DNA from: Propioniciclava coleopterorum
Lineage (GTDB): Bacteria > Actinomycetota > Actinomycetes > Propionibacteriales > Propionibacteriaceae
Direction of reading: 5' to 3'
NCBI RefSeq assembly: GCF_011393335.1
Contig: NZ_CP049865.1
Coordinates: 2,498,722 to 2,562,721, forward strand
DNA: 64,000 nt
The notes beneath the pieces were generated by a model. The model was not told where the DNA came from. It was given only the letters and a program-made list of their open reading frames with translations, and searched no databases. The first letter of the stretch is position 1; each line of letters starts with the position of its first letter. Positions 1-64,000 of this stretch are shown one piece after another. The translations under genes were made by a program, and so were the position numbers.

Positions 1-32
1 AGTGACTCGCGGGGCCGTGGTGCGTCGGTGGG

Positions 33-679
33 TCAGGCCCGGCGGGCCACCAGGACGCCGTCGCCGACGGGCAGCAGCACGGGGGACAGATCCGAAGAGT
101 CGGCGACCGCCGCCAGCGTCTCGCGCATGATGACGGTGTCGTCGTCCTCGTTGCCGGCGTCGGCGACCCGGCCGGCCGACAGGGCGTGGGAGATCACGAG
201 GAGGCCGCCGGGGCGCAGCAGCCGCAGCGACTGCTCGACGTACTCCACGGCCTCGAGCGGGTCGGCGTCGACGAGCACGAGGTCGTAGGCGGCGTCGCTG
301 AGCTTGGGCAGGACCTGCAGCGCGGCGCCGGCGATCAGCCGGGCGCGCCGGGCGGGGATCCCCGCGTCGGTGAGGACCCGGCGGGCGGCCGACTGGTGCT
401 CCGGCTCGGTGTCGATCGAGGTCAGCGTCCCGTCGGGCATCCCGTCCAGCAGGGCCAGCGAGGACACGCCGGCGCCGGTGCCGATCTCGACGGCGGTGCG
501 GGCGTCGATCGTGCGGGCCAGGAAGGTGAGCAGGGCCGCGGTGCCCGGGGAGACGGCGCCGATGCCGAGCCCGTGCGCCGCGGCGCGGGCGGCGGCGGCG
601 TGCTCGGACTCGGGGACGAACGCCTCGGCGTACGCCGAGGCCGCGGTCGGGGGAGGCTGGGCGTCGGTGCAGCGTTCAC
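33..679 (-). CDS. SAM-dependent O-methyltransferase (class I, caffeoyl-CoA/catechol OMT-like), one frameshift
   Basis: This is a cytosolic small-molecule O-methyltransferase of the methyltransferase_3 type, about 215 residues after repair. The Rossmann SAM motif [11 protein letters not shown] is near residues 64-74. The acidic residue of motif II is in TSIDTEP, and LVLVDAD and LLRPGGLLV follow further on. The frame breaks at the G run 649-653 (C run on the coding strand). Adding one base joins a start at GTG 679 ([23 protein letters not shown]) to the rest of the protein. The start is supported by a -10-like TAGTGT seven bases upstream and by the AYAEAFVP segment typical of actinobacterial members. 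It diverges from dapA. The substrate cannot be told from sequence. Confidence 0.85.
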
Positions 680-692
680 GGGAGCCACACTA
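680..692 (-). promoter_or_regulatory. Leaderless -10 element of the O-methyltransferase gene
   Basis: TAGTGT (minus strand, 692-687) lies 7 nt before the GTG at 679. This spacing puts the transcription start at or next to the start codon. No Shine-Dalgarno sequence is present. Confidence 0.55.
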
Positions 693-727
693 GCGGTCCA
701 CGGGTCGGGCGGGCCGACGGATGGGCC

Positions 728-740
728 TAGACTGTCCCGC
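728..740 (+). promoter_or_regulatory. Leaderless -10 element of dapA
   Basis: TAGACT at 728-733 is followed by 7 nt and then the ATG at 741. No Shine-Dalgarno sequence is present. It faces the O-methyltransferase promoter within a 61-bp divergent region. Confidence 0.6.
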
Positions 741-1621
741 ATGGCCCCGCAACCTTTCGGGCGACTCATCACGGCCATGGTGACGCCCTTCACGTCCGAC
801 GGCACGCTCGATCTCGACGAAGCGCGCCGGCTCGCGGCGTACCTCGTCGACGAGCAAGCCAATGACGGCCTGGTGATCAACGGTACGACCGGTGAGTCGC
901 CCACGACCGACGACGACGAGAAGAAGGCGCTGCTCGCGGCCGTCAAGGCCGAAGTGGGGGACCGGGCGCAGATCATCGCCGGCGTCGGGACCAACGAGAC
1001 CGCCGCCACCATCAAGCGCTGCCGCGACGCCCAGGACGCCGGCGCCGACGGCGTCCTCGTCGTGACCCCGTACTACAGCAAGCCCCCGCGGACGCCCTGC
1101 TGGAGCACTTCGTGCTGGTGGCCGACGCCACCGACCTGCCGGTGATGCTCTACGACATCCCGCACCGCTCGGGCATCCCGATCCCCGAGGACGTCCTCAT
1201 CGAGCTCGACCGGCACCCGACGATCGTCGCGGTCAAGGACGCCAAGGGCGACCTGGTCAGCTCCGCCCGGGTGATGGCGACCACCAACCTCGCCTACTAC
1301 TCCGGCGACGACGCCATGACGCCCCCGCTGCTGTCGGTCGGCGGGGTCGGAGTGGTCGGCACCTCCACGCACTTCACCGGCGCCGCGACGCGCGAGTGGC
1401 TCGACCTGTGGGCCGACGGCGCCACCGCCGAGGCGCTGGAGATCTACCGGCGGCTGCTGCCGGTGTACACCGGCGTCTTCGCGACCCAGGGCTGCATGCT
1501 GGTCAAGGCCGGCCTGCAGGCGCGCGGCTTCTCCGGCAACACCCTGCGCCGTCCCCTGAAGGCGGCCAGCACCTCGCAGGCGCGCACGTTCGTCCAGCTG
1601 CTCGAAGCAGCCGGGCTGTGA
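741..1621 (+). CDS. dapA: 4-hydroxy-tetrahydrodipicolinate synthase, one frameshift
   Basis: DapA condenses pyruvate with aspartate semialdehyde, the first committed step to diaminopimelate and lysine. The repaired protein has 293 residues, the normal family length. The NGTTGES motif is near residues 48-53 and VVTPYYSKP near 107-115. The catalytic tyrosine is in MLYDIP (about 138) and the Schiff-base lysine in VAVKDAKGD (about 166). IPHRSG replaces the commoner IPGRSG. Reading is broken at 1088-1092, just after YYSKPP; one extra base restores DALLEHF. An essential gene would not be expected to be dead, so I read this as a sequence error. tatB follows 23 nt downstream. Confidence 0.92.
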
Positions 1622-1644
1622 CCCGCTAGCCCCGAAGGTACGCC

Positions 1645-62206: not shown

Positions 62207-62207
62207 A

Positions 62208-62978
62208 TCAGAGCCTTTCAGGTGAAGCGGCGTTGGTCGAGGGGGCGGCCCGCAGCGGGTCGGGTCGCGCGATGTGGGCGATGCAGAGGTCGGGCCCCAC
62301 GAAGGCCTCCAGCTCCACCCGGGAGCGGGGCTCGTGCAGCGCCTCCAGCGTCCCGGCGATGACGCCGCGGTGGACGCCGCAGGCGATGGCCGGGTTGGCG
62401 CGGGCGAGTTCCAGCAGCGGGCAGTGGTTGAGGCACACGGTGGCCGAGCGGCCCTCGTCCTCCACGGTGACGGTCGGCGCGTAGCCCCAGCGGTCGAGCA
62501 CGTCGACGACGACGCCGACCTTGCCGAGCCAGGCGCCGGGGGTGAGCGCCGCGCGCGCGACCTCGTCGGCGCCGACCAGGTCGACGGCGTGCTCGACGGC
62601 CCAGCGGCGGCCGGCCTCCTCGGCCGAGGGCGCGTCGCCCGAGGCCATCGCGTCGGCCAGCACGGCCGCCAGCAGCCGGTAGCCGTCGGGCTCGGCGTCG
62701 GTCTGAGTGGGGACCAGCCACCGCTTGCGCGGCCGTCCGACGCCGGCGCGCTCGTCGCGGCTCGTGACGAGGCCCGCGCCGGCGAGCCGGTCGAGGTGGA
62801 AGCGGACGGTGGTGACGTGCAGCCCGAGGCGTCCGCCCAGGTCGGCGGCGGTGAGCCCGCCCGACCGCGTCGGCTGCCCGGCCGGGGCCAGCGAGGGCAG
62901 CCCGTCGAGCGCCGCGAGGATGGCGCGGCGCACCGGCGAGGCCAGGACCGCGTCGGCGTCCGCCTCGGCTGCGCTCAT
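62208..62978 (-). CDS. Winged-helix regulator with C-terminal cysteine cluster, head of nar operon
   Basis: This 256-residue protein has an N-terminal ArsR/SufR-like winged helix (VRRAILAALDGLPSL, TAADLGGRLGLHVTTVRFHLDRLAGAGLVTS). The C-terminal half carries CLNHCPLLELARANPAIACGVHRG plus FVGPDLCIAH, four cysteines placed as in SufR-type Fe-S sensors. It is the first gene of the regulator-narGHJI operon (1-nt gap) and faces narK. Oxygen or nitric oxide sensing through an Fe-S cluster is inference from the cysteine pattern and context. ATG 62978 has AGGGGGA upstream. Confidence 0.82.
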   Translation of the reverse strand: MSAAEADADAVLASPVRRAILAALDGLPSLAPAGQPTRSGGLTAADLGGRLGLHVTTVRFHLDRLAGAGLVTSRDERAGVGRPRKRWLVPTQTDAEPDGYRLLAAVLADAMASGDAPSAEEAGRRWAVEHAVDLVGADEVARAALTPGAWLGKVGVVVDVLDRWGYAPTVTVEDEGRSATVCLNHCPLLELARANPAIACGVHRGVIAGTLEALHEPRSRVELEAFVGPDLCIAHIARPDPLRAAPSTNAASPERL

Positions 62979-63105
62979 GGATCCCCCTTCTCGGGTGAGG
63001 TGGTCGCGATAAAAAGGATGTTGGCTGCGAGTCTAGACCCAAGGCGACCCGGCCGTGCAACCCACGGATATTGGTCGGCAATACGCATCTGACACGGGAC
63101 GATAT

Positions 63106-63126
63106 TCAACTACATGTCGTAGTTGA
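63106..63126. promoter_or_regulatory. Perfect palindrome in the regulator-narG / narK divergent region
   Basis: TCAACTAC-ATGTC-GTAGTTGA is a perfect inverted repeat of 8-bp arms. It lies 89 nt before the narK start and 128 nt before the regulator start. Its right half resembles the repeats in front of dmsA. Most likely an operator for the local regulator. Confidence 0.65.
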
Positions 63127-63214
63127 CGGGGGCTGTCTCGATGTGGTGGAATCGACGTCGGTCCAATAAAAATGATCGACACCCCCACGGTCGACATCCC
63201 CCACGAGGAGACAC

Positions 63215-64000
63215 ATGGCCGACGCCGCCCCGTTCGCCCTAGCCGGAGCGAGGCTCCCGCGCGGGGCGAGGCCCCCGGAGCGACCCGCGTCCTGACGATG
63301 TCGACGATCGCGTTCACGATCATGTTCGCGGTGTGGTTGATGTTCGGGATCCTGGGCAAGCCGATCCAGAACGAGTTCGGGCTCACCGATGTCGAGCTGA
63401 GCTGGATCAGCGCCGTCGCGGTGCTCAACGGGTCGATGTGGCGCCTGCCCGCCGGCATGCTGGCCGACCGCATCGGCGGCCGCAGGGTCATGATCGCGAT
63501 GCTGCTGATCGGCGCCGTGGCCAGCTTCGCGGTGTCGTTCGCCAACAGCTACCCGATGCTGCTGGTGCTGGCCTTCCTGGTCGGCTTCGTGGGCAACAGC
63601 TTCAGCGTCGGCGTCTCCTGGAACAACGCCTGTTTCAGCGACCGGCGCAAGGGCTTCGCCCTGGGCCTGTTCGGCGCGGGCAACGTCGGCGCCTCGGTCA
63701 CCAAGTTCATCGGCCCGGCGATCATCGCCGCCACGGCCGGCGCGACCTACACCCTCGGCGTCCAGGGCGGCTGGCGGCTCATCCCGGTGCTGTACGCCCT
63801 CCTGCTGCTGGCGACCGCGGCCGCGACCGTCGCGTTCACCCCGCGGCACGACCGGATGCCCGGCGCCACCAAGAGCGTGGGGCAGATGCTGGCGCCGCTC
63901 TCGGACGTCCGCGTGTGGCGGTTCAGTCTGTACTACGTGGTCGTCTTCGGCGCCTACGTAGCCCTGTCGGCGTACCTGCCCGCCTACTACGTCGACAACT
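63215..64000 (+). CDS. narK: NarK-type nitrate/nitrite transporter (MFS), 3' end outside window, one frameshift
   Basis: This is the first 262 residues or so of a nitrate/nitrite MFS carrier: FTIMFAVWLMFGILGKPI, GSMWRLPAGMLADRIGGRRV (motif A), the nitrate-signature FVGNSFSVGVSWNNACF and GLFGAGNVGASVTKF. It imports nitrate and/or exports nitrite. A GAGGAG site precedes ATG 63215, and the first 17 codons join the rest only if one G is added to the run 63263-63266. If that is not accepted, the earliest in-frame ATG is at 63298. The gene runs off the window. Confidence 0.9.

Follow-up and report, generated by a model that had tools for sequence, protein, structure and literature searches.

Single-base losses at short G/C runs in conserved genes of a Propioniciclava coleopterorum assembly, most probably residual homopolymer undercalling

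Broken genes in the window

The window analysed here is a stretch of 64,000 bases of Propioniciclava coleopterorum (assembly GCF_011393335.1, contig NZ_CP049865.1, contig bases 2498722-2562721). The contig is the only one of the assembly, which is rated 100% complete, and has 3,671,901 bases. GC (guanine plus cytosine) makes up 72% of the window and the same share of a 400 kb sample of the genome. The window holds a dapA-type gene, map, genes for transporters, a row of molybdenum-cofactor genes (moaB, moaA, moaD, mobA and moeA types) and the genes narG, narH and narI. The reading frames of 16 conserved genes were found to be broken at 22 sites, each by the net loss of one base (Table 1).

The breaks were called by comparison with orthologous stretches of 80 kb each from five genomes of the same genus, Propioniciclava (G001, G005, G008, G009, and G011). 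Proteins predicted in these relatives were aligned to the window by a protein-to-DNA method permitting frame switches, and orthologues covered 55.2 kb of the window in 161 alignments. Calls within 35 bases were joined, and a site was kept only if at least two relatives agreed on it (the two-relative rule). Positions represent the best fit of the relatives, except that the interval in the O-methyltransferase gene was set by hand. As a homology-free check, a 3-periodic coding model was trained on the stretches of the relatives and run with a strict frameshift penalty (probability 1e-8). This setting replaced a frameshift probability of 1e-4, at which the relatives showed 0-12 events per 20 kb, judged mostly spurious.

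Table 1. Broken genes and break-free stretches of the window, with one structural RNA
Feature	Position	Strand	Net -1 breaks (best fit; interval) and remarks	Relatives in support
O-methyltransferase gene (PF01596)	36..679	-	~651 (~642-653), near gene start	2
dapA-type gene (TIGR00674)	741..1618	+	~1090	4
Gene matching N-terminal half of MgtE model (below cut-off)	2098..3353	+	~2837	4
DUF1003 gene (PF06210)	3343..3842	+	~3368 (~3367-3375), near start	2
Mrp/ApbC-type Fe-S carrier gene	3885..5035	+	~4432 (~4428-4433)	4
YflT-type stress protein gene (PF11181)	7181..8094	+	~7980 (within ~7922-7980)	2 (3 in fit placement)
RNB-domain exoribonuclease gene (PF00773)	12596..14012	+	~13233 (~13230-13233), ~13577	4
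MFS transporter gene (PF05977)	15421..16759	-	~16039, ~16410	2
Type I methionyl aminopeptidase gene, map (TIGR00500)	17184..18043	-	~17608	4
GNAT acetyltransferase gene (PF00583)	21340..21929	+	~21491	4
Opp/Dpp B-type permease gene	39847..41369	+	~40757	4
Fused DppD/DppF-type ATPase gene (606 amino acids in G011)	42622..44434	+	~43601, ~43915	4
moaB-type gene	44517..44974	+	~44716	2
moaA (TIGR02666)	45444..46449	+	~45541 (~45536-45541), ~46170 (~46165-46170)	2
mobA-type gene (TIGR02665, below cut-off)	46703..47540	-	~47015 (~47013-47015), ~47308 (~47300-47308)	2
moeA/glp-type gene (below cut-offs)	48032..49250	-	~48086, ~48442	2
moaD-type gene	46460..46697	-	~46520; two-frame reading and coding model	no relative's orthologue aligned
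narK-type gene, cut by window end	63215..64000	+	likely break between 63215 and ~63266, from likely start codon alone	
Break-free stretch	21941..40700		two-relative rule and coding model; five single-relative calls (27.6, 37.8 kb) dropped	
Break-free stretch, holds unbroken narG, narH, narI	48500..63200		same rules; single-relative call at 58480 dropped	
Bacterial RNase P class A RNA	14033-14431	+	family match first to last position	

Gene families were taken from the intact orthologues of the relatives, several of which fell below the cut-offs of the family models, and they agree with the names given to the broken genes in the first-pass annotation, which had been made from the letters of the sequence. 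That annotation had counted 23 breaks. Homology supported 22 breaks, and a 23rd, in moaD, was supported by the reading of its C-terminus: the N-terminal part of the gene and a C-terminal ...DVLPPFAGG-stop occupy two frames, and the coding model placed a deletion at 46525. We take the Gly-Gly end to be a mark of MoaD. The count of the annotation included a break in narK. A ribosome-site-like stretch and an ATG at 63215 sit in another frame, and a frame break is therefore likely there; homologues did not confirm it at 63263-63266, where the N-termini of the relatives differ and the conserved part aligns in a single frame from 63250-63262. In the DppF-type gene, two breaks were found instead of the one previously listed.

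Direction of the breaks and comparison with relatives

Under the two-relative rule all 22 sites were net -1 and none was net +1 (two-sided binomial P = 4.8e-7), which bore out the earlier claim that bases were only ever lost. Four relatives supported 10 of the sites and two relatives the other 12. Fit placed 21 of the sites, 17 of them within 9 bases, and in 15 of the 16 broken genes, DUF1003 being the exception, a protein from a relative spanned the break or breaks in an alignment covering at least 95% of that protein. The window and its flanks taken together (85 kb) yielded 30 net -1 sites and no net +1 site. The calls discarded from the window, each from a single relative, were nine net -1 and five net +1. 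Counted per alignment with the rule off, the window had 76 net -1 and 5 net +1 calls, and each relative 5-12 net -1 and 3-8 net +1 (80 kb).

Compared site by site with the five relatives, each of the 22 sites had an orthologue with an open frame in at least two of them, so the breaks are not common to close relatives. By the identical method, the relatives yielded 2 net -1 and 0 net +1 sites in a total of 299 kb. Both were in G001 (56.3 kb), and there was none in G005 (56.2 kb), G009 (68.5 kb), G008 (59.8 kb), or G011 (58.6 kb). The two breaks of G001, itself a single-contig genome, are 296 bases apart (L042:94 and L042:390) and possibly reflect a true pseudogene or assembly errors of its own.

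Association with G/C runs

The first-pass annotation had placed most breaks in G/C homopolymers, and this held. Eighteen of the 22 breaks were at a G/C run of four or five and the remaining four at a run of three, whereas for random intervals of equal width the mean at runs of at least four was 3.5 of 22, and 18 was not attained in any of 20000 draws. The share of shortened runs rose with their inferred true length, from 4 of ~489 fours (0.8%) to 14 of ~139 fives (10%) and 4 of ~16 sixes (25%); this estimate uses current run counts and assumes that the longest run near each break was the one shortened. In the genome sample, 36 of 42 deletion calls of the coding model lay no more than 12 bases from a run of at least four, compared to 27% of random places. 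Per 100 kb, G/C runs of six numbered 17.2-18.8 in this genome and 28.8-40 in four of the relatives; the fifth had 18.8. Since A/T runs of at least four are rare in this genome, the confinement of the breaks to G/C runs says little in itself.

On the C-rich strand, GA followed the runs at breaks in 22 of 66 cases versus 12.4 expected (window and L061-L080 sample). In this count, runs for the 42 events of the sample were chosen by closeness and length, and the excess is a lead only; it could be an effect of the base-caller or of DNA modification.

Spread over the genome

The coding model recovered 12 of the 22 homology sites and moaD, and its counts are therefore lower bounds. It called 13 deletions and no insertions in the window. 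Twenty 20-kb stretches outside the window (400 kb, two of the stretches being the flanks of the window) gave 42 deletions and 5 insertions. In the five relatives, whose stretches had trained the model, 400 kb gave 5 deletions and 8 insertions. At least one deletion was called in 18 of the 20 stretches outside the window (range 0-4 each). At the rate of this sample, several hundred breaks would be expected genome-wide, and more after correction for the sensitivity of 12/22. The deletion rate of the window was about twice that of the sample by the same model (Poisson P = 0.02).

Three net -1 breaks fall in a gene for a 2-oxoacid dehydrogenase acyltransferase in the right flank (L074; window coordinates about 83.0-83.5 kb), and one falls in a nearby gene of the phosphofructokinase family.

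Conservation of the broken genes and intact copies

We asked how the broken genes compared with unbroken ones. Over 67 broken alignments, identity to the relatives was 0.680 in the first piece and 0.768 in the last, with no drop after the break; the relaxed constraint past a break that is expected of true pseudogenes was thus not found in these alignments. Within the window, alignments with a break had an identity of 0.749 (n=64) and those without a break 0.745 (n=102). In-frame stops, another mark of true pseudogenes, occurred in 15 of 256 alignments, many of them close to where the reading frame of the relative begins, and we read these as over-long start calls. In the left flank (L073, about -10.6 to -9.7 kb in window coordinates), alignments to two relatives both placed an in-frame stop at residue 89 in a protein of ~300 residues.

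The first-pass annotation had argued that essential genes were broken. For map and dapA this argument is weak: elsewhere in the genome there are two unbroken paralogues of map, and also two unbroken relatives of dapA that score below the cut-off of the model. It is stronger for moaA, which lies in three pieces and has no second complete copy elsewhere in the genome, and for the sole DapD gene, located 7 kb left of the window, which is split into two pieces. The argument should therefore rest on moaA and dapD. Among the unbroken genes, narG, narH, and narI scored above the cut-offs of their models; their products depend on the molybdenum cofactor. A spot check of dnaN found it whole here and likewise in three relatives.

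Interpretation of the breaks

From the sequence comparisons, we consider it very probable that the breaks are residual homopolymer undercalling, in other words base-calling and consensus errors, and that the genes are intact in the organism. This explanation is favored because the changes go in one direction, are linked to G/C runs increasingly with run length, are spread over the sampled genome, and are nearly absent in relatives, and also because identity is no lower past the breaks and sole-copy genes are split. The systematic undercalling proposed in the first-pass annotation is supported on all of these grounds. In reads of a genome of 72% GC, runs of four to six G or C would sometimes be called one base short, and polishing would have left about one in ten of the true runs of five uncorrected. 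Each missed base would shift the frame of its gene, the gene itself being intact in the organism. Undercalling would thus be occasional (about one in ten inferred true runs of five) and not a property of every run.

Several observations weigh against this explanation. Four of the sites sit at runs of just three, and runs of five were not clearly rarer here than in the relatives. Not all calls were losses: 5 of the 47 calls in the genome sample were +1, and in the left flank, near -5.2 kb, there were +1 calls from two relatives, separated by 54 bases and so left unjoined under the 35-base rule. The spread is uneven, with zero breaks at 21.5-40.7 kb and 48.5-63.2 kb, which uniform undercalling does not predict (P = 0.004 for the largest gap and 5e-5 for the second, with 24 sites including moaD and narK drawn over G/C runs); at 50.7-55.3 kb, where no relative aligned, the break-free status comes from the coding model alone. 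Conversely, eight breaks, moaD included, fall in 4 kb over the molybdenum-cofactor genes (P = 0.007). Our guess is that the patchiness stems from local read depth or partial polishing. In one report, moreover, the drafts of one nanopore data set were insertion-dominated before polishing, so deletion-only error is not universal (PMC8011154).

The same cluster over the cofactor genes, made up of seven homology-supported breaks and moaD at 44.7-48.4 kb, resembles what decay of an unused pathway might leave, and it is an argument that the deletions are real and very recent, in a hypermutating or decaying lineage whose broken genes are true young pseudogenes. The unbroken copies of map and dapA would also make their loss survivable. 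A lineage of this kind is nevertheless improbable: none of the 22 sites was a net gain, the sole copy of DapD is in two pieces, deletions were called in 18 of the 20 sampled stretches, divergence is not in excess past the breaks, and the cofactor-requiring narG, narH, and narI are unbroken. It is more improbable still that the short runs are real and that hundreds of frames are restored at expression by slippage of RNA polymerase or the ribosome on short G/C runs. Such slippage would account for breaks that are mostly at homopolymers and for downstream pieces that are still conserved, but the runs are merely three to five G/C long, the frames are open in relatives of the same genus, and hundreds of unrelated genes would need to slip. 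To our knowledge, slippage needs longer runs, mostly of A/T.

That the calls themselves are false, arising from misread overlapping genes or from alignment artefacts in a GC-rich genome, we regard as hardly credible. The many events that the looser first coding model called in the relatives, the 14 single-relative calls dropped from the window, and the single calls seen in relatives are points in its favor. However, the two-relative rule left just 2 sites in the 299 kb of the relatives, and the window sites were backed by four relatives in 10 of 22 cases and closely placed. Residual undercalling is the favored explanation, an ordinary artefact of a kind already described.

Comparison with published assemblies

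Because the genome forms a single contig in which both ribosomal RNA (rRNA) operons are resolved, it was probably assembled from long reads. PacBio assemblies carry similar residual errors, and PacBio may be the platform of this assembly instead of nanopore. According to the report on the Kastor long-read assembly, long-read errors are predominantly short indels (insertions or deletions) at homopolymers, and runs of four to five identical bases preceded the largest number of deletion errors (PMC12007338). As described there, and as in the present assembly, single-base deletions break up many genes and raise the number of annotated pseudogenes (PMC12007338). Unlike here, the Kastor assembly is 59% GC and errors at A/T runs were commoner in it (PMC12007338), whereas the errors placed here are at G/C runs, as expected because A/T runs of at least four are rare. 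The present breaks also resemble those of Nanopore R9.4-type assemblies, in which, according to two reports, low depth without short-read polishing leaves homopolymer indels that lead to frameshift errors in gene calling (PMC9262707, PMC8011154). One of them gives 151-5298 annotated pseudogenes in R9.4 genomes after Racon and Medaka (PMC8011154).

The sole significance of the breaks is as a quality warning for annotation. If this genome represents its species in a reference set, hundreds of genes would be falsely listed as pseudogenes by automatic annotation, and steps of molybdenum-cofactor and lysine/peptidoglycan synthesis would wrongly appear to be lost.

Ribosomal RNA copies

The two rRNA operons of the genome differ by substitutions, spacer changes, and the length of one run in the 16S rRNA gene. 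The 16S copies lie at contig positions 638145-639661 and 3005900-3007415. A G run is G5 in one of the two copies and G6 in the other and in four of the five aligned sequences from relatives; the alignment covered 6 of the 15 16S loci, the anchor strings being unmatched as oriented in the other 9, one of the genome's own copies among them. The base adjacent to this run differs as well.

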